Source: Lachnospiraceae bacterium (lineage in GTDB: Bacteria > Bacillota > Clostridia > Lachnospirales > Lachnospiraceae). Taken from it: a DNA stretch of 58,138 nucleotides. Positions 6,139-58,138 of the stretch are shown piece after piece. The position numbers and the translations under genes are program-made. The notes below the pieces were generated by a model that saw only the letters and a program-made list of their open reading frames with translations, did no database searches and was not told where the DNA came from. Within the stretch, counting starts at the first letter, position 1. Each line of letters begins with the position of its first letter. Location: contig JAILBQ010000093.1 of the NCBI GenBank assembly GCA_024680815.1, forward strand, positions 1 to 58,138. The letters are read 5' to 3'.

Positions 6139-7209
6139 TTACATTCCTATGCCGGAATAGTCGTACGCCGTGAATATTTCATACTCCTCTTTTAAATAAT
6201 TTTCCGCGTTATCCTTTGTGAGCTGATATTCTCCCGCCTTCAGCCACCGGAGAATATCACTGTTTACCCAGGGCCCGTAATGCAGACTGTCCTTATAATT
6301 ATCAAGATCCGCAACGAGGTCCAGCTTTGTGTTAAAAGAAAAAAGATGAATATTCTCACAGGGCAGCAAAAGGTCTGTCACAAAGCTTTCGGCCTCCAGT
6401 TGCTTTAAGAGCATCCCCTTATTGTTGAGATCATTCCAGTAGACAATGCTGTAGGGCGAATAGAAATAATAAAAATCGACATCCGGATTCTCTTCAGTGG
6501 TCTTTATAACATTCTGATATATGTTTTCCCTCATCCTCTCCTTAAGCTCATCGGTAAGGGGTGTGTTCTCCCCGGTCTTTTCTGTGCTTATCCCTCCCGG
6601 GCAGACAGCCTCAAAACCATAGGTATAGCCGCTCCGCCAGGAGGAATAGTCGTCAAAGGAGGTTATGCCAGGGAAAAAATCCTTCCTGAAGCGGCCCGAA
6701 AGCATCCGGCATAGCTTTCCGAAAAAGACATCTTTGTTTAAAAGATATTCGATATCGTTAAAAGGGTTTTCGTCATAAAGATAATAGGGAAACGTCCCCA
6801 TATCCTCCCGCATAAGATCCTTGTCTTCCCAGAAGCCTCCCATATCGAGACACCGTATGACCGTTTTGAGCTTCCCCCTTAAAGCGGCCTTCGCCACATA
6901 ATCATTTATCTCCTTAAAGGAAGCCCCGTCGGAAGGAATTTTAATGAAGCTCCCTCCGAAAAACTCCTCAGCCTCAGAAGCCAGGAAATTATCGGTCATG
7001 GAGGTTCCGGTTATAATCCCGTTATAATCAAAATGCCTCACTATTCCGTCGTTCTGGCTTCTCTGATTGTCCAGGGTATAGAAAAACTTCCCGGATTCCG
7101 GCGCGTGATAATGGAAAAAGGGATCAATAACGAAAGTCAGACCCGCCGCCGTCCCTAATGCAATTATGGTTATTACGGCCCAGGATATCAGCCATGTCTT
7201 TGTTTTCAT
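6139..7209 (-). CDS. AlgJ/DltD-like SGNH acyltransferase, membrane-anchored
   Basis: About 356 residues from the ATG at 7209, preceded by AGGAGA; a longer frame to 7269 has no ribosome site. One N-terminal membrane segment (WLISWAVITIIALGTAAGL) leaves the rest outside. ITGTSMTDNF carries the Ser-containing block of SGNH-like acyl-transfer proteins, and DSLHYGPW near the C-terminus gives the Asp-x-x-His pair. In alginate and related systems this partner takes the acyl group exported by an MBOAT protein and places it on a polymer. It lies 17 bases downstream of the MBOAT gene, and the secreted SGNH gene precedes both, forming a three-gene cassette. Confidence 0.8.
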   Translation of the reverse strand: MKTKTWLISWAVITIIALGTAAGLTFVIDPFFHYHAPESGKFFYTLDNQRSQNDGIVRHFDYNGIITGTSMTDNFLASEAEEFFGGSFIKIPSDGASFKEINDYVAKAALRGKLKTVIRCLDMGGFWEDKDLMREDMGTFPYYLYDENPFNDIEYLLNKDVFFGKLCRMLSGRFRKDFFPGITSFDDYSSWRSGYTYGFEAVCPGGISTEKTGENTPLTDELKERMRENIYQNVIKTTEENPDVDFYYFYSPYSIVYWNDLNNKGMLLKQLEAESFVTDLLLPCENIHLFSFNTKLDLVADLDNYKDSLHYGPWVNSDILRWLKAGEYQLTKDNAENYLKEEYEIFTAYDYSGIGM

Positions 7210-7226
7210 CAATTGTTCTCCTGACC

Positions 7227-8624
7227 TCAGAACCCCGAATATATAAACACCGCTTCCGTTCCCATGCACAGCACTCCCATCACAAACATCGCGGCCGATA
7301 AAAGGAGCGAAACCGCGGTTGTCTTTTCCCTTGTTTTATAGCTGTTTTCCGGCACGAGGCAGATAAAAAACGCCGCCAGCAGGAAAACAAACATTTCGTA
7401 TTTTGTCTTTGTGAAGGTGAATAATTCATACAGCCCTTCGCTTACCGCAAGGCTCCGCAGCGAAAGAATCCGCCGCAGTATGAGCTGCCAGAGAGCAACG
7501 GACTGGGAGCTGAAAAGGAGCCACAAAACATTTAAAATCCCGAAGGTCACAACCCACCTTACGGGTGCGAATACCTTTTTTTCAAATTTTTCAAAAGCTC
7601 TGTCCAGGCAGAAAAACGCTCCGTTTAAAGCTCCCCACAGCACAAAGCTCCAGTTTGCCCCGTGCCACAAGCCGCTTATCAGAAAAACAGCCATGACATT
7701 GACACAGGTTAAAACCTTCCCTTTTCTGGAGCCTCCGAGAGGAATATAAATGTATTTAGTGAGAAATTTAGTTAAGGATATATGCCATCTCTTCCAGAAA
7801 TCCCTCATGGAAAGCGCTTTATAAGGGGAGTCGAAATTGACCGGCAGATCAATGTTAAGCATTGAGGATACCCCCAGCGCCATGTCAGAATAGCCGCTGA
7901 AATCAAAATAGATTTCAAAGGTGTAGAAAAGCATGAGAAGGATACAGTCCATCGGGGTCGCGGTGACTATATTGCCGTAGATCCAGCCGACGGCGCCGGA
8001 AAACGCGGCCGCAAGAAAGGTCTTTTTAACAATTCCGGCGGAAAACAGCCTTATTCCGATCGCAATTCTGCCGGGATCAGTTTTTTTACGGGAAGCGTCA
8101 TTAATCTCTTCCAGAAATTCCGCGGGCTCGGTAACCGGTCCCATTAGAATTCTCGGAAAATAAAGAATATAGACAAGATAATCCGTAAGCTTTATATCGG
8201 TTATCTCATTTCTCCATACAGCCACGATATAGGCTATCTGCTGGAAGGTATAAAAGGAAATCCCCGCCGGAAGAATTATGCTCTTAAGCGGAATATTCCT
8301 CCCGAAAAAATCATCTATACTCTGAATCAGAAAATTATAGTATTTGAAATAAAAGAGCAGCCCGACATTTATAATTACCGGGAGAGCCAGAAGAAGCCCT
8401 CGGAAACGGGGACTCCGGCGGATAACAAGGGCAGCAGCGAAATTCACCAGAATGCTTATTCCGAGAACTGGAAGCATTTCCAGCCTTCCGAAGGAATAAA
8501 AGGCCGCACCTGCCAGGATAAGAACCGCTTTCCCGAATGCCGGTTTTATCCGGTTCGCCAGATAGTAGAGCACTATCGAAAGCGGCAGAAAAACAAATAT
8601 AAACGAATAGCTGTTAAACTGCAT
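7227..8624 (-). CDS. MBOAT family membrane O-acyltransferase (AlgI/DltB-like)
   Basis: 465 residues with about ten to twelve membrane segments. Family marks are LNIDLPVNFDSPY, FWKRWHISLTKFL and LWHGANWSFVLWG, the last with the conserved active-site His. MBOAT proteins pass an acyl group, usually acetyl, across the membrane to an extracytoplasmic SGNH partner. The neighbouring AlgJ-like protein fits that role. No polysaccharide synthase is adjacent, so the acceptor (wall polymer, teichoic acid or exopolysaccharide) is unknown. The start MQFNSYSFIFVF is the usual family N-terminus; it lies 9 bases after the preceding SGNH gene. Confidence 0.9.
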   Translation of the reverse strand: MQFNSYSFIFVFLPLSIVLYYLANRIKPAFGKAVLILAGAAFYSFGRLEMLPVLGISILVNFAAALVIRRSPRFRGLLLALPVIINVGLLFYFKYYNFLIQSIDDFFGRNIPLKSIILPAGISFYTFQQIAYIVAVWRNEITDIKLTDYLVYILYFPRILMGPVTEPAEFLEEINDASRKKTDPGRIAIGIRLFSAGIVKKTFLAAAFSGAVGWIYGNIVTATPMDCILLMLFYTFEIYFDFSGYSDMALGVSSMLNIDLPVNFDSPYKALSMRDFWKRWHISLTKFLTKYIYIPLGGSRKGKVLTCVNVMAVFLISGLWHGANWSFVLWGALNGAFFCLDRAFEKFEKKVFAPVRWVVTFGILNVLWLLFSSQSVALWQLILRRILSLRSLAVSEGLYELFTFTKTKYEMFVFLLAAFFICLVPENSYKTREKTTAVSLLLSAAMFVMGVLCMGTEAVFIYSGF

Positions 8625-8633
8625 TGATTCCCT

Positions 8634-9377
8634 CTATAACCCGGACAGCAAAATCTCTCTCTTAATAAGGGTATATATGTCTGCTGTTGTTTTTCCGTTG
8701 TAATGAATCCCGTCGTATGCCGTTTCATACCCGTTTTCAAGAAGATACGAGCAGGTGTCTATATATTTAAGGTACGGCTCGCCCATCATCACATAATTAA
8801 ACACCTTAAGATTCTTATTCATGATTCCGTATTCGGGGATTTCGGGACGGTCCTCCACGGGATTCACGGAAACAAAATACACGAGTCTGTCCCGGGAAAG
8901 CTCAAAAAGCGCCTTCCGGTATTCATAAATATTCCACATGTCATTAAAGCCCATGGAAATAATATAGCGCCAGGTTCTGATTTCAGGATGGGCCTCTTCT
9001 ATCCTTTTCGCCGCCGGAAGGGCAATTTCCTCAAAGTATTCAAAGCCTTCTCCCGAAGCCGCAAGAATATAGATATTATCACGGCGCGCATTAACCTGAA
9101 ACTGACACTCTATGAAAACCGTTCTGGAATCGCCGATTATGATATAGCCGATGCCGTCCGGGGAGTAGGTCAGATTATAAAGGGCAGGGGCGGAAACTCC
9201 GCAGTCTTCATACTCCGTAGTGGGTATCCCTGCCAGCTTCTTCTCCGTAATGGCGCTGATATCGAGGTCAGAGGCGTAAGCGCTGACAGACAGGGACAGC
9301 ATGAAAACCGCAGCAGCAAGCACCGAAAATGTAGTTTTAACGGTCCGGATAAAGATACCCGTCAGCCCCCGATTCAT
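8634..9377 (-). CDS. Secreted SGNH/GDSL-type hydrolase
   Basis: 247 residues with a signal peptide ending near SVSAYAS. IIIGDSRTVF is the block I Ser, SMGFNDMWN the block III Gly/Asn, and DGIHYNG the C-terminal Asp-x-x-His, so all four SGNH positions are present and it should be an active esterase or acyltransferase outside the cell. It is the first gene of the leftward cassette with MBOAT and AlgJ-like proteins; a deacylase or a second transfer enzyme for the same polymer is a reasonable inference. Confidence 0.8.
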   Translation of the reverse strand: MNRGLTGIFIRTVKTTFSVLAAAVFMLSLSVSAYASDLDISAITEKKLAGIPTTEYEDCGVSAPALYNLTYSPDGIGYIIIGDSRTVFIECQFQVNARRDNIYILAASGEGFEYFEEIALPAAKRIEEAHPEIRTWRYIISMGFNDMWNIYEYRKALFELSRDRLVYFVSVNPVEDRPEIPEYGIMNKNLKVFNYVMMGEPYLKYIDTCSYLLENGYETAYDGIHYNGKTTADIYTLIKREILLSGL

Positions 9378-9484
9378 ATAAGACGCATTCCCCCCGGTTT
9401 GTTCAGGACTTTTTAAAAATTATATCATATTTCCTCCACGCGATGTACTCCCGAAGAAAAATGCGCTAAGCACCCTCAAAGATA

Positions 9485-9511
9485 TCTGATAAAAATAAAC
9501 GAATTCTGATA
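9485..9511 (+). promoter_or_regulatory. Candidate AraC-type operator: direct TCTGATA repeats
   Basis: TCTGATA occurs at 9485-9491 and again at 9505-9511, 20 bases apart (two helical turns), upstream of the beta-xylosidase gene. A possible -10 TATACT lies at 9534-9539. The core CTGATATA (9506-9513) recurs on the minus strand in the regulator/binding-protein intergenic region at 12884-12891. Confidence 0.45.
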
Positions 9512-9604
9512 TATTTAAAAATACTCCCCCGCCTATACTTTTCTCGTACTGAACACTTCTTTAATGGTGCGAAGCCGCAGAACACGCGGCAGAAAGGGGT
9601 AAGA

Positions 9605-11608
9605 ATGATCTATTATGTTTCGGCGGAAGCTTTTCGAAGCGGGGACGGCACCAAAGCCCACCCTTTTAAAACCATAGGAGAGGCCGCGCGTCTTGCCGGG
9701 CCCGGCGATGAAGTGCTGGTTTCCCCCGGAGTATACCGGGAATACGTCAATCCGAAAAACGCCGGACTTCCGGGAAAACCCGTAGTTTACCGTTCCGTCG
9801 AGCCCCTGAAGGCCGTGCTAACAGGCGCGGAGATTGTGAAAAACTGGAAGAAGCATGAGGGTGATACCTATGTGGCCCGTATCGGAAACGGGCTTTTCGG
9901 CGACTACAACCCCTATACGGTTCCGGTGGCCGGAGACTGGTATTTCGCCCCGGTTCCGGTACATACCGGCGAAGTCTATCTTAACGGAAAGGCTCTCTAT
10001 GAAGTTATGACCCTTGAGGAGGTGTTAAATCCGAAGCCCTTCAAGCAGTCCTGGGAAAGCGACGAAATCACTGTCCGTAAATGGTATACCAGGCAGGACG
10101 GAAACGATACCCTTATCTATGCCAACTTCTCCGGAGCGGATCCCAACAGTGAGTGCGTGGAAATAAACGTGCGCAGAAACTGTTTCTATCCCTCAAAGGA
10201 GGGCGTGGGGTACATCACCCTCTCCGGCTTTACGGTGAAGCAGGCCGCCACACAGTGGGCTCCTCCCACGGCCTATCAGGACGGAATGGTGGGCCCGCAC
10301 TGGTCAAAGGGCTGGATAATAGAGGACTGCGAAATCAGTGATTCGCGCTGTTCCGGAATAACCCTCGGAAAATATCTCCAGCCTGAAAACAACAATAAAT
10401 GGACGACAAAATACACCAAGGACGGAACCCAGACCGAGCGGGACAACATTATGCAGGCCCAGGCCGAGGGATGGTCAAAGGAAACCATAGGCTCCCACAT
10501 AATCCGCCGCTGCCACATCCATGACTGCGGACAGACCGGTATTGTGGGCCATCTGGGCGGTGTTTTCTCCGTTATCGAGGATAACCATATCCACCACATC
10601 AATAATAAACAGGATCTGGCCGGGGCGGAAATCGGCGGCATCAAGATGCACGCGGCCATTGATGTAATCTACCGCAGAAACCATATCCACCACTGCACCA
10701 GGGGACTGTGGCTGGACTGGCAGGCCCAGGGCACCAGGGTCACAGGGAATCTCTTCCACGACAACACCCCTCCTGCGGGTACGGACATAACTCCCCTCCT
10801 GGGGCTTGGCGAGGACATCTTTATCGAGGTTTCCCACGGGCCCACGCTGGTGGACAACAATCTCCTGCTCTCTCCCTTATCCTGCAGAATCAGCACCCAG
10901 GGGGTGGCCTTCGTCCATAACCTTATTGCCGGATCGTTTACCTGGGTGGGTTACGGGGTACAGAACGGCGGAGCCTATCTTCCGACTCCCCGCTACACTC
11001 CCTACCACATGCCCCACAGCACTTTAGTGGCGGGCTTTATGACGATTCTTCACGGAGATATGCGCTTCTACAACAATATCTTCGTGCAGCAGGAGATTCC
11101 GGAAGATTATCCCGAACACGCGAAAAAGTACGGCACGGAAAAGGAGTATAATTTCGAATGCGGCACCGGCGTCTATGACGGCTATCCCACCTCGGAAAAA
11201 TATTTCGCCCTCTTCGGCCCCTGGAAGGAGAAGGACGAACGCACGAAGGATAAATATTATGAAAAGCTCCCGGTGGACGGCGCAGGCAATATTTATTTTA
11301 ACGGCGCGAAGTCAAACGGCAGCGAGGAAGACGCCTTTATCGACAAAGAGCACAAGGTGGAGCTTTCCCTTTCGGAAGAGGACGGGAAGGTCAGTCTTAA
11401 AACCAATCTCTATGAATTTCTGCCGGAATGCACGGCACGGACGGTCTCAACTGAGGTACTGGGAAAGGCCTTTGAGCCCGAGCAGTGCTTTGAAAATCCC
11501 GACGGAAGCGGGATTGTCTTTAACGAGGATTATTTCGGCGCCCACAGGGGCATAAACCCGATGTACGGGCCTGTTGAGAATCCGGAGGAGCTGAAAAATC
11601 TGTTTTAG
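9605..11608 (+). CDS. xylC: GH120 beta-xylosidase (XylC-like), intracellular
   Basis: 667 residues, no signal peptide. It matches from memory the Thermoanaerobacterium GH120 beta-xylosidase XylC along its length: shared stretches include GDEVLVSPGVYREYV, GADPN, EINVRRNCFYP, GPHWSKGWIIED, GGVFSVIEDNHI and LPHST-like MPHST. The fold is a right-handed beta-helix. The XylC nucleophile and acid/base (Asp382, Glu405) correspond to Asp371 in LWLDW and Glu408 in FIEVSHGP; this protein has about 14 extra residues between them. It should release xylose from imported xylo-oligosaccharides. AAAGGGG at 9593-9599 supports the start, with a small GCCGC/GCGGC hairpin just before. It faces the AraC gene and overlaps its stop by 4 bases. 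Confidence 0.88.
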   Translation: MIYYVSAEAFRSGDGTKAHPFKTIGEAARLAGPGDEVLVSPGVYREYVNPKNAGLPGKPVVYRSVEPLKAVLTGAEIVKNWKKHEGDTYVARIGNGLFGDYNPYTVPVAGDWYFAPVPVHTGEVYLNGKALYEVMTLEEVLNPKPFKQSWESDEITVRKWYTRQDGNDTLIYANFSGADPNSECVEINVRRNCFYPSKEGVGYITLSGFTVKQAATQWAPPTAYQDGMVGPHWSKGWIIEDCEISDSRCSGITLGKYLQPENNNKWTTKYTKDGTQTERDNIMQAQAEGWSKETIGSHIIRRCHIHDCGQTGIVGHLGGVFSVIEDNHIHHINNKQDLAGAEIGGIKMHAAIDVIYRRNHIHHCTRGLWLDWQAQGTRVTGNLFHDNTPPAGTDITPLLGLGEDIFIEVSHGPTLVDNNLLLSPLSCRISTQGVAFVHNLIAGSFTWVGYGVQNGGAYLPTPRYTPYHMPHSTLVAGFMTILHGDMRFYNNIFVQQEIPEDYPEHAKKYGTEKEYNFECGTGVYDGYPTSEKYFALFGPWKEKDERTKDKYYEKLPVDGAGNIYFNGAKSNGSEEDAFIDKEHKVELSLSEEDGKVSLKTNLYEFLPECTARTVSTEVLGKAFEPEQCFENPDGSGIVFNEDYFGAHRGINPMYGPVENPEELKNLF

Positions 11609-51512: not shown

Positions 51513-53285
51513 TTACGGCTGTTCCTCATAAATCACTGCTTCATACGGACGCAGGATTCCTTTTTTCTCCCCGGAACAGGTGCTCATAATGCATTTACCG
51601 TCCTTTACATATCCGGGATCATACTCTGCTTCCCCGTCAGTAAAATTGATGAGAACAGTCACCTTTGCGTTTCCTTTACTGCGGGTGTATGCGACGATGT
51701 TCTGATTATCCGGCATTATCTCTTCATAATCCCCGTCCGTCAGCTCCGGAAGCGCTCTGCGAAGCTTTGAGAGCGTCAGATAGAAATTCAGGACGGAGTC
51801 CGGATCAGCCTTTTCAGATTCCCGGTTATACACCGTATAATCGGGGTATACCGGCAGCCACGGTTTCCCGGTGGTAAAGCCCGCATTCTCTGATGCGTCC
51901 CATTGCACCGGCGTCCTGGCGCTGTCCCTGGAAAAATGGTGTACCCCGTCCATGGCCTCTTCTTCGGAATAACCCTCGCCCAGGGCAAATTCATAATGAT
52001 TCTTTGTGGAAATATCGTTGTAATCATCGATGGAAGGCCAGTCCACATTTACATATCCAAGCTCCTCCCCCTGCATGATGAAAGGGGTCCCCCGCATCGT
52101 AAGGAGCAGTGTGGCAAGAGCCTTACCCCTTGCCGTACGGTCTCCGTTTCCGGGAAGATAATGATCGATGGAACGCGGCTGATCGTGATTCTCCAGAAAC
52201 ACCGGGAACCATCCGCCGGCGCCATCGGCCGCAGCCAGACTGTCTTTAAAAAACGATCTGAATTCCTGAAGCGACCAGTCCCTTGTTTCGCACCAGTTAT
52301 TCTCATCCGGCAGGTCGATATTCACAAGCCCGAACTCAAAGACCATATCAAAGACGCCGTCATCCCCTACCCACTTATCAAGATCTGCAGCAGACACGCC
52401 GTTCGCTTCACCCACCGTGAAGATGTCGGTGCCTTCCTGGACGGATGCTTTGAATTCATGAAGATAATCCAGTATTCCGTCGGTATTGGCCGTCATGGAA
52501 TGGATTCCCACCATCCCGTCCCCGGCATCGGGTTCTCCGTCAGCAAATATTTCCGGCTTCTTTATATAGGTGATGGCATCCATCCTGAATCCTCCCACGC
52601 CTTTATCCACCCAGAACCCGGCAACATCCGTCACGGCTTTGCGAACCTCCGGATTTGCCCAGTTAAGATCCGGCTGCTCCGGCAGGAAGGTATGCAGATA
52701 GTACTGGCCGCGCCCTTCGTCAAATTCCCACGCGGAGCCTCCGAAGATACTCCGCCAGTTTGTGGGAGCGCTGCCGTCTTCCTTCGGATCTGCCCAGATA
52801 TACCAGTCGCTTTTATCGTTGTCCTTACTCTGACGTGACTCAATGAACCATTCGTTTTCGTTGGAGGTATGGTTGAACACCAGATCCATGACGATCCGGA
52901 TATCACGTGCTTTTGCCTCGGCAATAAGCGTATCCATATCCTCCATCGTCCCGTATGCGGGATCTATGCTGTAATAGTCAGCAATATCATAGCCGTTGTC
53001 CGCCTGGGGCGATGCGTAGCAGGGCGTCAGCCATACTGCTCCCACACCAAGCTCTTTAAGATGATCCAGCTCCGATGTGATCCCGTTGAGATCTCCTGTT
53101 CCGTCCCCGTCGGAATCCTTATAGCTCTTCACGTATATCTCATAGGCGATGGTCTTCTGCCACCACTTAAGAGCGGATTCCGATTGCGGTTCAACACTCC
53201 CGGACATACTGCACCCTCCTGTAAACAAGATACACATCAATAATGGAATAATAAAAAATCTTCCTGTCCTGCCGGCATGTCTCAC
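51513..53285 (-). CDS. Lipoprotein GH13 alpha-glucosidase (oligo-1,6-glucosidase type)
   Basis: 590 residues. The start is GTG at 53285, eight bases after GGGAGG; a TTG two codons earlier is too close to the site. Lipobox TGGC (Cys25) places it outside the membrane. Catalytic regions: DLVFNHTSNENEWF, GFRMDAI (nucleophile Asp), FTVGEANG (acid/base Glu) and ENHDQPRS (third Asp). The overall length and the C-terminal beta domain (VLINFTDGEAEYDP) match oligo-1,6-glucosidases and related GH13 members. Anchored outside, it would cut malto- or isomalto-oligosaccharides, unlike the usual cytosolic enzymes. No sugar transporter is adjacent. Confidence 0.92.
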   Translation of the reverse strand: MRHAGRTGRFFIIPLLMCILFTGGCSMSGSVEPQSESALKWWQKTIAYEIYVKSYKDSDGDGTGDLNGITSELDHLKELGVGAVWLTPCYASPQADNGYDIADYYSIDPAYGTMEDMDTLIAEAKARDIRIVMDLVFNHTSNENEWFIESRQSKDNDKSDWYIWADPKEDGSAPTNWRSIFGGSAWEFDEGRGQYYLHTFLPEQPDLNWANPEVRKAVTDVAGFWVDKGVGGFRMDAITYIKKPEIFADGEPDAGDGMVGIHSMTANTDGILDYLHEFKASVQEGTDIFTVGEANGVSAADLDKWVGDDGVFDMVFEFGLVNIDLPDENNWCETRDWSLQEFRSFFKDSLAAADGAGGWFPVFLENHDQPRSIDHYLPGNGDRTARGKALATLLLTMRGTPFIMQGEELGYVNVDWPSIDDYNDISTKNHYEFALGEGYSEEEAMDGVHHFSRDSARTPVQWDASENAGFTTGKPWLPVYPDYTVYNRESEKADPDSVLNFYLTLSKLRRALPELTDGDYEEIMPDNQNIVAYTRSKGNAKVTVLINFTDGEAEYDPGYVKDGKCIMSTCSGEKKGILRPYEAVIYEEQP

Positions 53286-53663
53286 AAGCAAATCCTCCCT
53301 GAACCTTTCTCAAATGTATCCCCCGACAGCTCCCCGTTAAATAAATCTTACCCCAAAGCGCTGTTTCTGTAAACAGCACTTCATGCCGTGCGCACTGTAA
53401 TGGATATCCATGAAGTAATTCATTTCATCCATAACCTTGAGGATACGGGTTTTGACCAGCTCGTAAAAAACAGGGTCTGCCGGTGCCTGCCTGGGATTAT
53501 CGTGTCCTCTGAAAAACCATTGAATAGCACAGATCATGGGGTTTATCAATTCTTACTCCGGCTTTGCGGCACGACGGTTTCCGGCTCGTTAATTATCTCC
53601 GGCAATATTTCACCCTTTCTTTCAGTTCCTCCGAAATATCCAACTGCTTAAACCCTTCCGCAT
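53286..53663. other. Gene-poor gap between glucosidase and subtilase
   Basis: 378 bases. It holds a possible 70-codon frame (53337-53549), an inverted repeat GCTGTTT/AAACAGC at about 53361-53380 and, just after the subtilase stop, a short open stretch (EGFKQLDISEELKERVKY) with no start of its own. No clear terminator for the subtilase gene was seen. Confidence 0.5.
53337..53549 (-). CDS. Small hypothetical protein or gene remnant
   Basis: 70 codons from a TTG at 53549 with GGAG six bases upstream. It reads ICAIQWFFRGHDNPRQ, FYELVKTRILKVMDEMNYFM and FGVRFI; no family is recognised. Its place in a gap between two long genes and its weak start argue either for a small gene or for the end of a decayed one. 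Codon use is not distinctive. Confidence 0.25.
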   Translation of the reverse strand: MINPMICAIQWFFRGHDNPRQAPADPVFYELVKTRILKVMDEMNYFMDIHYSAHGMKCCLQKQRFGVRFI

Positions 53664-56600
53664 TTACTTTACCTTGAGCTTAAATGATGCTTTCTTTCCG
53701 GTACAGTCTGTCGCTTTTATTGTTATCGTACAGCTTCCCTTTTTACGTGCCGAGATAATGCACAAATAAACCATTTCGTCAGACTTTGCCGAATATCTAC
53801 TGACATATGCGTTCGCAACAGCTGGATTACTGCTTATGACCTCCGGTTCGACCACCCTGCCTGTTCCCATGGAATAATCCCATCCGGTATTTCCTGAAAA
53901 CAGGTCAACCTCATTAATAAAGTTTATCGGTACTTTCTGGGGGCTTTTATAATTTGCTTTCAATTTTGTTGTCGGAGCGACGACGAGAAAAGTCTTATCC
54001 TTAGTGAGTCCGGTACCGTCTGTCGCCTTCAGTCTGACCGTAACGTTATAATATTTGTATGACCCTACGGTTGCCAGTTTTTTATTAATGCTCAGTTTAC
54101 CCTTGCTGAGCTTGATATAATTTTTCGCGTTTGAAGTCACATCACTGCCGCTTGTTCCGCTCGTGATACCTTCTACCCTGACTATCTCCCATTCAACCTT
54201 TTTTTCGGTGGGTGTCCCGTAGGCTGAACCGAGCGCCGGTCTTATTTTCATCTTTTTACCGTATGCCACGCACCGCTGAGACTTGTCCGGGAACATATCC
54301 AGCCTTGAAACAGGGACCAAAACCTTTACCGTGAGCACAAGCTTTTTATTTGAGCCGTCGGTCGCTTTACAGGTGATCTTTGCCTTTCCGGCTTTTTTCC
54401 CGGTGATCTTTCCCGAAGCGTCAACCTGCACGATGGAAGGCTTTGAGCTCGTAAATAAAAGCCCGGCACCGTTATCCGCCTTGCCCTCAAGGACGACCTC
54501 GTTTTCGGTGATATCCTTCGTCGCGCTGATGTCCACGTTGTAGATCCTGACGGACTTAAGATTTCCGTTCTTATCCGTTTTGGGATCATTCAGATCCTTG
54601 TTCACGGAAACCGACTTAAGAGTTACCGATCTTGCGGGATCAACGATCTTTACCGCCAGTGTTCCCTTTTTTCCTTCTGCCTCGCCGATCACCGTAAATC
54701 CGCCGGACGCCGATTTTTTAATGCTGACCTTGCCGGTTTTTTTGTTTATCGTGACTCCCGTGGGAGAGCCGTCCAGACTCCATGTAACTTTTCCCTTCTT
54801 AAAGCCGGGATTGAGCTTATAGGTAACGCTCTTTCCCTTTGCGGCAATAACCGGGCCCACAACCTCGTATACTGCCGCGGAATTGGGGATCTGTACGGTC
54901 CGGGTCGCGATGTCTGATGCCGTTCCGATACCGGTGATCCTCAATACCTGGAGTTTTACGGACTCATCCGCCTGTATACCGTTCTTTACAAGCTCCTCCA
55001 CGGAAATAGTTACCGTCCCGGGATCTGCCGGATTTTCGATATAGATCCCTTCCTTTATCTCTCCGCCTTTTATCGAAGGCTTCTTTCCGTTCACGGTATA
55101 TATAAAGCCCTGTGTCTTTCCTGCCGCATTGTTATCGCTGACGGTTATAACGGAGTCGCTCGAGATCGTCCCGGGCACATTTATCACAGGCGCCTGCGTG
55201 CTCTCGATCAGAGAGAGCATTTTCGCCGCATTTATCATTCCCGCACCTATCTTATACGGGCTTGAGATCTTTGTGGCACTCTGTTTAAGAGCCTTCTCCA
55301 CCTCGTCAGGACTGGCTGTTTCTCCTTTCGCCTTTTTTGCGCTTATATAAAGAGCGCAGACACCCGCCACAACGGGGGTAGCCATTGATGTTCCACTCAT
55401 TAGGCCCCAGTAATCATAATCCGTAGAAAGATTATACGCTCCCGAGGAAGCACTGTCGTCAAAATGCCCGTTCCAGGTTGAGTAGATGTCCGTTCCCGGA
55501 GCCGCTATGTCCGCCCATTCCCCATGGGTTGAAAAGTCGGATTTCTGCAGGCTTTCATCCAAAGAAGCCACAGCTATGACATTATCATAGGCGACAGGAT
55601 ATGCCACATTATTGGCCGATTCATTACCCATTGCCACACATATGGTGATACCCGCTTCATGCGCTTTGTTTACGGCATCCTGGACGATCTGGCTGTAAAG
55701 CGGACCTCCGATGCTCATATTTATGACATCGGCTTTTTTACCGTTTGCCACATAATTTACAGCAGCCGCCTCATTGGCTGCACTGCAGCCATTACTTTCA
55801 AATATGGGAAGCCCGAGGATCTTTGCCTTCGGTGCAACTCCGACACCTCCTTCCGAGTTGTTTGCGGCCGAGGCGATTATCCCGGCCACATGTGTTCCGT
55901 GCCCGGAATTATCTACAAGTTTAGTACCCGCGACAACCTCGCTGGTGACAATCTCTGTGACCTGCCCCTTCAGATCGGGATGGCCGCTGTAGACTCCGGT
56001 ATCTATCACCGCGACAGTAACGCCTTCTCCCTGGGTCGCACCCCAGGCCTGGTAGCTTCCTATGGTATCATGCATCCACTGATACATATTTTTATTTATA
56101 TTTTCGTCAAGAGGATCATTCGCCATATATGCCGGATCAAGCGCCTTATCATTGAATCTTTCCCTCCAGTAAGACCAGCCTCTGCCGCCGATGGATCCCC
56201 TTTTGGCCATAACGCTGTTAAGGCTTTCCATATCCGGGTCTCGGATATTGTCTTCCTTTACGGGATCATCAAGCTTTGTAAATGTGTTGGGCTCCACCGG
56301 GGGCAGCGAGTTCGTTATGTCCGCCCCGGCCTTTACGGCATCCTCAACCGTGACACTGGCGGTATCGAGCTTTATGACCGCAACGCCCCAGTCACAGGAT
56401 CGCAGCGTCCCGTTGTAGGCTTTTGCCACGACCTTTGCGTATTCGGGATCGTCGCAGGAAAAGATGACCTCATCCTCAGCGTAATCCTTTCCGGCTTCCA
56501 GGGTTTCCAGAACATTGAGGACATCATGCTCAATGATATTTTTCTTTCCTTCGATCTGCTTTTCGGAAAGTGTGAAAGCTTCCGGCATACCATTGAAAAC

Positions 56601-57008
56601 GGACTCCGCGAGATTTTCCGATATGGTCTCTTCGGGAACTTCTCCTTCTGCCAGATTTTCCGATACCTCAGAGCCTGCCTCCTCTTCGATCGGGATCTCC
56701 GCCGCATTTTCCGAAGGCTGCGTTCCTTCCGCCGGCTCCGCGTCCTCCGCAACCGGGATCTCCGCCGTATTTTCCGAAGGCTGCGTTCCTTCCGGAGCTT
56801 CCGTCGGCCCCTCATCCGCTGCATCCAAATCCTCTGTTCCGTTTTCCGACAGCCTATCGGTTTCGTCCTCAACAGCCGGCTGATCCGCGCTTATAACTGT
56901 CTTGTCCGGTAAGACCTCTTCAGACGCAAAAACAGTCCCGTTCAGCGAAAACACGACCGATACGGCGATCAGGATTGCCAGGAGCCTGTGTTTGATACTT
57001 TTCTTCAT
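53664..57008 (-). CDS. Secreted S8 subtilisin-like serine protease with Ig-like domains
   Basis: 1114 residues. A signal peptide (to about 29, VFASE) is followed by a Glu-rich linker with an in-frame duplication (GTQPSEN-AEIP), a propeptide (about 175-243, containing WGVAVIKLDT), then the protease domain: Asp336 (VIDTG), His370 (GHGTHVAG), oxyanion Asn462 (GNES) and Ser541 (GTSMATP). The C-terminal 500 residues are Ig-like, Big_2 type domains (KISIKKSASG, SGKITGKKAGKAKITCKA). There is no sortase motif, so retention is through the repeats or it is released. The upstream lipoprotein resembles its propeptide; a TATAAT -10 is near 57555. Confidence 0.92.
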   Translation of the reverse strand: MKKSIKHRLLAILIAVSVVFSLNGTVFASEEVLPDKTVISADQPAVEDETDRLSENGTEDLDAADEGPTEAPEGTQPSENTAEIPVAEDAEPAEGTQPSENAAEIPIEEEAGSEVSENLAEGEVPEETISENLAESVFNGMPEAFTLSEKQIEGKKNIIEHDVLNVLETLEAGKDYAEDEVIFSCDDPEYAKVVAKAYNGTLRSCDWGVAVIKLDTASVTVEDAVKAGADITNSLPPVEPNTFTKLDDPVKEDNIRDPDMESLNSVMAKRGSIGGRGWSYWRERFNDKALDPAYMANDPLDENINKNMYQWMHDTIGSYQAWGATQGEGVTVAVIDTGVYSGHPDLKGQVTEIVTSEVVAGTKLVDNSGHGTHVAGIIASAANNSEGGVGVAPKAKILGLPIFESNGCSAANEAAAVNYVANGKKADVINMSIGGPLYSQIVQDAVNKAHEAGITICVAMGNESANNVAYPVAYDNVIAVASLDESLQKSDFSTHGEWADIAAPGTDIYSTWNGHFDDSASSGAYNLSTDYDYWGLMSGTSMATPVVAGVCALYISAKKAKGETASPDEVEKALKQSATKISSPYKIGAGMINAAKMLSLIESTQAPVINVPGTISSDSVITVSDNNAAGKTQGFIYTVNGKKPSIKGGEIKEGIYIENPADPGTVTISVEELVKNGIQADESVKLQVLRITGIGTASDIATRTVQIPNSAAVYEVVGPVIAAKGKSVTYKLNPGFKKGKVTWSLDGSPTGVTINKKTGKVSIKKSASGGFTVIGEAEGKKGTLAVKIVDPARSVTLKSVSVNKDLNDPKTDKNGNLKSVRIYNVDISATKDITENEVVLEGKADNGAGLLFTSSKPSIVQVDASGKITGKKAGKAKITCKATDGSNKKLVLTVKVLVPVSRLDMFPDKSQRCVAYGKKMKIRPALGSAYGTPTEKKVEWEIVRVEGITSGTSGSDVTSNAKNYIKLSKGKLSINKKLATVGSYKYYNVTVRLKATDGTGLTKDKTFLVVAPTTKLKANYKSPQKVPINFINEVDLFSGNTGWDYSMGTGRVVEPEVISSNPAVANAYVSRYSAKSDEMVYLCIISARKKGSCTITIKATDCTGKKASFKLKVK
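56692..56794 (-). repeat. In-frame duplication in the subtilase linker
   Basis: The 40-base stretch beginning GGGATCTCCGCCG (plus strand) at 56692-56731 recurs at 56755-56794, 63 bases (21 codons) apart, with one mismatch. It encodes EGTQPSENxAEIP twice. Confidence 0.85.
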
Positions 57009-57093
57009 ACTCCACCTCTTTTTTCTGGGATTTATGTTAAGTTACAGCAGTTTTTTTACTCCCAAATGACCGTAATTCCTTTGTCATCACCCT

Positions 57094-57528
57094 TCAATGA
57101 ACATTTTTGTCGACCTTTAACTCCCCCGGAACTGCAGGCTCCGGAAATGTGGTCGCCATAGTGTTCAGTGAAAGTTCCGGAAGTCCGTCCTTTTTCCCGC
57201 GTTCGATAACTGAAGAAGGATCCTCTTCGGTATGAAAAACGGCAACGCCGGATGTATAATCCACGAACTCTATCCCGTACCCGGCAGCTATTTCCTTTGC
57301 TTCTTTTTCACTCTGCACCGAAGCCGTAAGCTCTTTGCCCGAGACCGGAGAGATAAGACTGTCGGTGCTTTGCGGGTAATTTGCGATATCATCATGTTCC
57401 GGATCTGTCACAGCCTTCATTTCCCCTGCCTCTCCATGCTCTTTGCCGCAGCCGGCCGCTGCGGCCGCAAACAGGCAGAGCATCGCGCTTATCAGGATAA
57501 CATATCCTTTCGTCTTTTTAAATCCCAT
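57094..57528 (-). CDS. Small lipoprotein resembling the subtilase propeptide
   Basis: 144 residues. Lipobox AAGC (Cys27), then a short acidic tether, then residues 64-128 that align with the subtilase propeptide downstream: KELTASVQSEKEAKEIAAGY with VIFSCDDPEYAKVVAKAY, then GVAVFHTEED with GVAVIKLDT, SSVIERGKKDGL with VEDAVKAGAD and ATTF with PNTF. That is the I9-like inhibitor/propeptide fold, here without a protease. It is 85 bases upstream of the subtilase on the same strand with no terminator between. A membrane-bound folding chaperone or inhibitor of the protease is the inference. A TATAAT -10 is at 57555-57560. Confidence 0.75.
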   Translation of the reverse strand: MGFKKTKGYVILISAMLCLFAAAAAGCGKEHGEAGEMKAVTDPEHDDIANYPQSTDSLISPVSGKELTASVQSEKEAKEIAAGYGIEFVDYTSGVAVFHTEEDPSSVIERGKKDGLPELSLNTMATTFPEPAVPGELKVDKNVH

Positions 57529-57554
57529 GATGCACCTCCGTTACCGTTTATGTT

Positions 57555-57560
57555 ATTATA
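57555..57560 (-). promoter_or_regulatory. -10 box upstream of the lipoprotein-subtilase pair
   Basis: Minus strand TATAAT 27 bases before the lipoprotein ATG; no good -35 at 16-18 bases was found. GGAGG lies just before the start codon. Confidence 0.4.
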
Positions 57561-57705
57561 TCATGATTGAAACGCCAAAAGTATTTGCAGCGGCGTCAAC
57601 TGCGAGGAACTGTTGATTATGTTCCTTGACAACTGAATACAGTTCATGATCCAAGAAAAGCCTGATTTCTGCTGATTTTATGCGGATTTTACGGCCTCTT
57701 CGTAG

Positions 57706-57711
57706 TATAAT
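57706..57711 (+). promoter_or_regulatory. -10 box of the transposase gene
   Basis: TATAAT on the plus strand about 40 bases before the transposase ATG; the -35 is weak. The left end and inverted repeat of the insertion sequence were not identified. Confidence 0.4.
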
Positions 57712-57749
57712 AGAGATAGCAGTTTTCCTATTTTCTATGAGGTGCCGAT

Positions 57750-58138
57750 ATGTCCTTCGTTCAGAATTCCTCTCAACAGATATCTCTTTTCGACAAGCTG
57801 GCCTTTCTTTCCCCGAGAAAACAACAGATGCTGGAGAAGTCATGGGCACAGGCTTTTTCAAACCATATCTTTACACGGATCAATGAGAACATCTTTGCTC
57901 CGTTGTACAGCGAAAAGACCAATTCAAGACCAAATGCTCCAATCAATGTACTGGTTAGCGCCCTGATTCTAAAGAATTTCAGAAGCCTTACAGATGAAGA
58001 GGTCACGGAGGCCTGTGAGTTTGATTTCCGATATCAGTACGCACTTCATACAACAAGCTTTGAAGACCAGCCAGTCAGTGAACGGACATTGAGCCGTTTC
58101 CGTTCCAGACTTGCTGCTTATGAACTGACTACAGGTGA
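57750..58138 (+). mobile_element. IS1182-like transposase, 5' part (runs off right edge)
   Basis: The frame is open from the ATG at 57750 (GAGGTG upstream) to the window end, 129 complete codons. It reads LSPRKQQMLEKSWAQAF, NAPINVLVSALILKNFRSLT, ACEFDFRYQYALHTTS and VSERTLSRFRSRL, the DUF772-type N-terminal domain of IS1182/IS5-type transposases. The catalytic DDE part lies beyond the edge, so activity cannot be judged. It is the only mobile element seen and flanks the subtilase-lipoprotein pair. Confidence 0.85.

Follow-up and report, generated by a model that had tools for sequence, protein, structure and literature searches.

Why would a bacterium whose secreted subtilase already carries a propeptide encode, right beside it, a second and free-standing version of that propeptide, apparently held on the membrane? 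The question is raised by a small lipoprotein gene of a Lachnospiraceae bacterium (assembly GCA_024680815.1), located in the window, i.e. the whole stretch of 58,138 nucleotides analysed here (contig JAILBQ010000093.1, positions 1 to 58,138). The gene is separated by 85 b from a subtilase (family S8) gene on the same strand, and from their spacing the two probably form an operon. The original prediction, made by eye, regarded the lipoprotein as a free-standing subtilase propeptide encoded next to its likely protease. Here, I show that comparison of the sequences confirms the homology between the lipoprotein domain (about residues 64-128) and the propeptide of the adjoining subtilase; the recurrence of the gene pair in related bacteria suggests a surface-held off switch or a folding helper.

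Homology to subtilase propeptides

Taken pairwise, the resemblance is not significant by itself (BLASTP: 14.2 bits, E ~7). When the family of 14 lipoproteins is aligned with 12 propeptides by hhalign, a probability of 98.1 and an E-value of 9.7e-14 are obtained, residues 60-131 of the lipoprotein falling on residues 175-245 of the subtilase; this is the register first read by eye, in which residues 64-128 had been aligned with about 175-243. The trimmed alignment scores 74.0, whereas none of 100 column shuffles exceeds 16.8 and the reversed control gives 9.5. Along the same line, a profile of six lipoproteins run against 48 genomes of the genus retrieved nine genes of the lipoprotein type, spread over six genomes, together with 84 further matches at E<=0.01; 68 of these 84 lie 121-508 b ahead of a same-strand S8 domain, as do 33/34 at 1e-5 and 17/17 at E<=1e-6, a position that identifies them as the propeptide region of proteases. 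Conversely, a hidden Markov model (HMM) built from propeptides only found all 19 lipoprotein-type relatives supplied to it (22 being known in all) at E<=1e-6, and among 815 other open reading frames (ORFs) of 60-249 aa it recovered the same lipoproteins again in five cases, the best of the remaining 810 having E 4.8. Chance resemblance is therefore rejected by the profile alignment, the shuffle controls and the genomic position of the profile matches.

What does not hold is the label of I9 type, when taken as profile membership: Inhibitor_I9 (PF05922) is matched neither by the window protein at E<=10 nor by the 14 family members at E<=5, and is likewise unmatched at E<=1 by the 12 protease propeptides, a comparison in which the HMMER filters discard most weak matches. 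The propeptides of the partner proteases are, by sequence, of a known kind, for Fervidolysin_NPro-like is matched by 8 of the 12, with E 8.1e-6 at best; the propeptide of the window subtilase matches it below the cut-off of 21 (E 0.0056, 17.5 bits). The window lipoprotein has no match in NCBIfam, and a sequence search of the PDB with it returned no chain at E<=10.

The predicted structures bear on the same point. The lipoprotein model is ordered as strand-helix-strand-strand-helix-strand (strands 65-70, 87-92 and 95-100, helices 74-84 and 104-113, and a bridge at 120-121), the last strand being merely this two-residue bridge, and the predicted local distance difference test (pLDDT) reaches 95-98 in blocks within residues 71-120. 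The same order is found in the model of the subtilase propeptide, with pLDDT of ~90 or more across the domain in both models. The predicted fold of the lipoprotein is thus that of a propeptide rather than an unrelated one, and the helix, strand, helix pattern noticed originally is shared by the two models, its exact order being the longer one given above. Pro-subtilisin E (3whi_A) aligns with the protease model through both propeptide and catalytic domain, over 319 residues at 3.4 Å. In an alignment of 12 subtilases (11 lipoprotein partners and one other), no variation is seen at the catalytic Asp, His and Ser or at the oxyanion Asn.

The first solved folds matched by the lipoprotein model, with modest scores, are those of Aeromonas ORF2 (PDB 3wqb, 2mk4), an external chaperone. 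This match speaks for a first alternative to inhibition, namely a membrane-anchored helper which, like ORF2 or the membrane-anchored lipase foldases, would aid the subtilase in trans, in its folding or maturation, at the Sec exit, a translocation site for which an anchored position would be apt.

Relatives and gene neighbourhood

Relatives were gathered by sequence searches blind to the neighbouring genes, in the genus and its kin, by a pattern scan (one strict peptide pattern, 84,980 species genomes) and by a family search (396 genomes, E<=1e-9), to which a class search (391 genomes) is added; the latter two sampled larger groups evenly, with at most 10 candidates scored per genome. Once duplicate locus identifiers are merged (L081=L032, L082=L035, L083=L034, L089=L036 and L092=L033), 22 distinct lipoprotein relatives are counted, L033 and L034 being near-identical.

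A same-strand subtilase adjoins 19 of the 22, at a gap of -11 to 132 nt. PF00082 confirms 18 of these 19 neighbours; the partner in G026:C84 is cut by the contig end short of its catalytic domain and was judged by its N-terminus, which is like that of its near-identical sister. In the 48 genomes of the genus, S8 matches amount to 121 (PF00082, E<=1e-10), i.e. two to three per genome, and because they are so few the adjacency is far from chance expectation. The placement of an anchored propeptide homologue beside a subtilase with a propeptide of its own is therefore recurrent, as originally proposed, and relatives mostly devoid of a subtilase nearby, the outcome that would have spoken against it, are not what is found.

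The order of the two genes bears on the folding helper in both directions, the lipoprotein gene coming first in 14 of the 19 pairs, as would suit a helper, and the protease gene coming first in the other five, which would not.

Three relatives stand apart. In L036 (G011:C32) both flanks are readable and S8 is absent alongside, the genome having seven PF00082 matches; in G001:C129 and L090 one side is cut by the contig end and the other is without S8. L090 (positions 2-310) is a frame at the start of a MAG contig in which what looks by eye like the C-terminus of an ABC-transporter ATPase is continuous with the propeptide-like domain; it is likely an assembly chimera, the alternative being a fusion.

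The family is rare. Besides the window, the family search found it in 6 of 396 genomes, belonging to five other genera, and the class search only in the window and in one of those six. Named loci from the pattern scan are labelled Lachnospiraceae or Butyrivibrio, the exception being L090, labelled Oscillospiraceae.

Some of the pairs have neighbours worth recording. Downstream of a protease-lipoprotein pair, L086 carries at 6204-10408 a gene with a PPC domain followed by one with a transglutaminase core, and L088 carries a transglutaminase core at 6244-8469. L033 and L034 (G026:C84 and G029:C68), from two species-level genomes, have near-identical lipoproteins and subtilase starts with trp-like genes (by eye) near them, and either recent transfer or cross-assembly may account for their near-identity. 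In G029:C5 a second subtilase, of another clade, lies divergently right behind the lipoprotein gene (L032, 7148-10234, plus strand), which is thus flanked by two subtilases.

Origin of the pair

In an unrooted tree of few columns, 17 lipoprotein cores and 28 propeptides fall on opposite sides of one branch (100/100, all 200 bootstraps), so that the lipoproteins are monophyletic only with a root on the propeptide side; L102 and L103 were lost through a motif filter, and L033, L037 and L038 were not included. Because the cores form one side of a fully supported branch, the lipoprotein family looks, from its sequences, like one old copy of a propeptide, and repeated local copying from each neighbour is rejected.

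In a tree of 48 sampled S8 domains, a single clade with 27 members (95/91) contains all 18 paired proteases, the 30 unpaired ones in the tree being a selection of those fetched rather than all 121 PF00082 matches. The pairing is one-way, for nine of the 27 have no same-strand lipoprotein gene alongside, one flank being lost to a contig end in four of these (L047, L109, L112 and L125). Four of the nine belong to G011, whose lipoprotein is unlinked (L109 lying near a contig end), and one to G006, where the lipoprotein stands beside another protease; for the remaining four (G012, G017, G023 and G068) no lipoprotein was found in assemblies that are 94, 85, 77 and 79 per cent complete, respectively.

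Each of the 18 partners examined has retained a propeptide of its own (11 are in the profile, and the other seven match it with E between 3.7e-18 and 1.4e-41). The lipoprotein is therefore an extra copy, and replacement of a lost propeptide is rejected. This retention argues against the folding helper, the Aeromonas enzyme being propeptide-deficient, and so do the proteases of the same clade in assemblies (77-94 per cent complete) where no lipoprotein was found. Taken together with its fold, its location and the order of the genes, I regard the folding helper as the strongest of the three alternatives considered, and yet an unlikely one.

Over 17 pairs, the distances among lipoproteins correlate with those among catalytic domains (r=0.537, 1/5000 permutations being as high) and among propeptides (0.453, 0/5000), the propeptide-catalytic domain correlation being 0.794; shared descent alone could explain these values.

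Anchor and tail

The window protein bears a signal peptide with the lipobox AAGC (pattern match), and its lipidation at Cys27 is predicted on this basis. Anchors among the 22 relatives comprise 13 lipoboxes, three off-consensus Gly-Cys pairs (L032 counted here) and two hydrophobic N-terminal segments without such a Cys (L104, L105); none is seen in L106, and three N-termini are cut off (the anchor of L033 was read by eye). To judge by these sequences, membrane attachment is conserved while its form changes.

The small domain proper of the window lipoprotein comprises residues 64-122 and is followed by a tail. In 6 of 21 relatives the tail ends exactly six residues past the conserved Asn (Asp in L104), none is shorter, and in four more it ends within eight (L088 and L105 counted by eye). 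The same six-residue spacing separates the helix-capping Asp71 of subtilisin BPN' (PMC6993865) from the last propeptide residue, 77, whose equivalent place in the window lipoprotein is held by Phe128. By analogy, such spacing would fit an inhibitor that inserts its tail into the substrate groove. Two observations weigh against it: 11 of the 21 tails extend further, and the residue at the propeptide-end place varies. Comparable tail variation is nonetheless described among orthologues of a proven inhibitor, SUB1-ProM (PMC6993865).

The same variability, in both length and sequence, would suit a propeptide copy that took up a new job, e.g. as a decoy or sensor cut by the protease at the surface with no lasting inhibition. 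The family does lie well apart from the propeptides, and has an FHT motif of its own that is invariant in 14/14 members, though not across the six more distant relatives. The near-constant linkage to one S8 clade and the conservation of the whole propeptide core point instead to direct binding of the protease, and I consider the new job the least probable of the alternatives, indeed very improbable.

A proposed surface-held inhibitor

How, then, might the two proteins work together? Since the partners keep their propeptides and proteases of the same clade occur without the lipoprotein, an inhibitor or regulator is favoured over an obligatory folding helper, and the tail spacing and the retained membrane attachment favour a tethered one. 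That the lipoprotein is a tethered inhibitor or regulator of the subtilase I judge, on sequence evidence, to have an even chance of being right. The stand-alone copy would be held on the outer face of the membrane by its lipid and a flexible tether of ~36 residues; the secreted subtilase would first fold with its own propeptide and then shed it; the tethered copy would dock on the mature enzyme where the propeptide had been, its C-terminal tail occupying the substrate groove, and so keep the subtilase inactive or slowed near the membrane. Activity would appear only away from the cell surface or after consumption of the inhibitor. I take inhibition in trans to be the most likely of these steps, and protection of the envelope, timing of activation or retention of the enzyme at the surface are candidate purposes.

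A more specific proposal, possible although clearly less probable, is that the propeptide mimic confers immunity to the cell's own released subtilase, as a proteolytic counterpart of a bacteriocin-immunity pair which would have evolved once by propeptide copying and been kept beside one clade of secreted subtilases, the gene order and the kind of membrane anchor each taking two forms.

Retention at the surface is also the core of a last alternative, in which the lipoprotein would be a stabilising subunit holding the mature protease in a lasting complex. It has a precedent in PrcB, a small lipoprotein without which its subtilase is not detected (PMC8167434), and an LPXTG-like motif is absent from the last 60 residues of 18/18 partners; this absence is uninformative, because the motif is missing in 10/10 unpaired proteases too. 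Moreover, the retained enzyme would be silenced by a propeptide-like domain filling its active site, and the PrcB family is absent among the Pfam matches of the window protein at E<=10, in a comparison made by Pfam profiles only. I hold such a subunit to be improbable, less so than the new job and more so than the folding helper.

A lipid-anchored extra copy next to proteases that retain a propeptide would show how these bacteria tolerate, on their own surface, a protease that they secrete, and in so small a system of two genes the roles of a propeptide as chaperone and as inhibitor could be separated experimentally.

Features of the window

Table 1. Features of the lipoprotein and subtilase genes in the window
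Feature	Position	Strand	Basis
Lipoprotein gene, 144 aa, free-standing propeptide-like protein	57094..57528	-	ORF; S8 propeptide homology; structure model
Signal peptide and lipobox, predicted lipidation at Cys27	57448..57528	-	AAGC pattern; predicted helix 6-24
Low-complexity, disordered tether, residues 28-63	57340..57447	-	pLDDT <50 at 28-41 and 43-62
Propeptide-like domain and tail to Phe128, residues 64-128, conserved Asn122	57145..57339	-	Model; propeptide alignment
C-terminal extension beyond presumed propeptide end, residues 129-144	57097..57144	-	Tail comparison; low model confidence
Secreted subtilase gene (S8), 1114 aa, adjoining the lipoprotein gene downstream	53664..57008	-	PF00082 E 1.9e-52, residues 327-588
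Own propeptide core of the subtilase, residues 176-245	56274..56483	-	Alignment with relatives; model; Fervidolysin_NPro-like match
S8 catalytic domain, triad and oxyanion Asn present	55245..56030	-	PF00082; 12-sequence alignment

In a scan for promoters and terminators, no terminator-like site was found on the minus strand of the intergenic stretch 57009-57093. Over 53300-57760 the scan gave 8 terminator-like sites, where shuffles gave 5.0 (sd 1.7), and 6 promoter-like sites, where they gave 4.9, both weak and non-decisive. Between its signal peptide and propeptide, at residues ~50-135, the window subtilase is Glu-rich with repeated S-E-N motifs, and by eye other proteins of the genus, e.g. 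L043:10784-11737, bear similar motifs close to their N-termini. The subtilase gene is followed on its strand by a gene at 51513-53291 (minus strand) whose product resembles, by eye, an alpha-amylase-type lipoprotein, and divergently from the lipoprotein gene the start of a transposase-like ORF (by eye) runs from 57750 to 58138 (plus strand), truncated at the contig end.

Comparison with known systems

The nearest bacterial counterpart is ORF2 of Aeromonas sobria (PF18492), likewise a separate propeptide-like protein encoded beside a subtilase; it is the external chaperone of the serine protease of this species and also inhibits it (PMC5638518). Its partner is propeptide-deficient, according to the title of Kobayashi 2015 cited in PMC5638518, whereas the present partners retain their propeptides, and the window protein, unlike ORF2, is a predicted lipoprotein. 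PF18492 (ORF_2_N) is the sole Pfam match of the window protein, at E 0.026 and 15.1 bits against a cut-off of 29.2; only one of 14 relatives matches it, and families matched by chance occur in more of the lipoproteins than ORF_2_N does. The Fervidolysin-type N-terminal prodomain (PF22148) is part of the protease chain whereas the lipoprotein is free-standing, and 0/14 lipoproteins match it at E<=5.

PrcB of the Treponema denticola dentilisin resembles the window protein as a small lipoprotein encoded alongside a subtilase; it has an acyl anchor, belongs to one operon with the subtilase and interacts with it, and PMC8167434 describes it as without homologues outside oral Treponema. SUB1-ProM of Plasmodium is, like the window lipoprotein, a stand-alone propeptide-like protein; its gene neighbours three subtilase genes that share its orientation, and a propeptide is also present in SUB1 itself (PMC6993865). 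TgMIC5, Pleurotus peptidase A inhibitor 1, yeast peptidase B inhibitor and Arabidopsis SPI-1 are also named there. These named examples are eukaryotic and their inhibition was measured, while the present family is bacterial, anchored and known from sequences and models. In its mode of action the window lipoprotein would resemble SUB1-ProM and these other mimics, and also ORF2 in its inhibitory capacity.

In the literature compared, the stand-alone propeptide-like regulators of subtilases that are named are thus eukaryotic, and the bacterial case, ORF2, serves a propeptide-less protease. The literature searched, which mostly excludes subscription journals, yielded no account of a propeptide mimic that is bacterial and anchored. 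What seems new is a bacterial and membrane-anchored form of such a protein, kept beside proteases that have retained their own propeptides.
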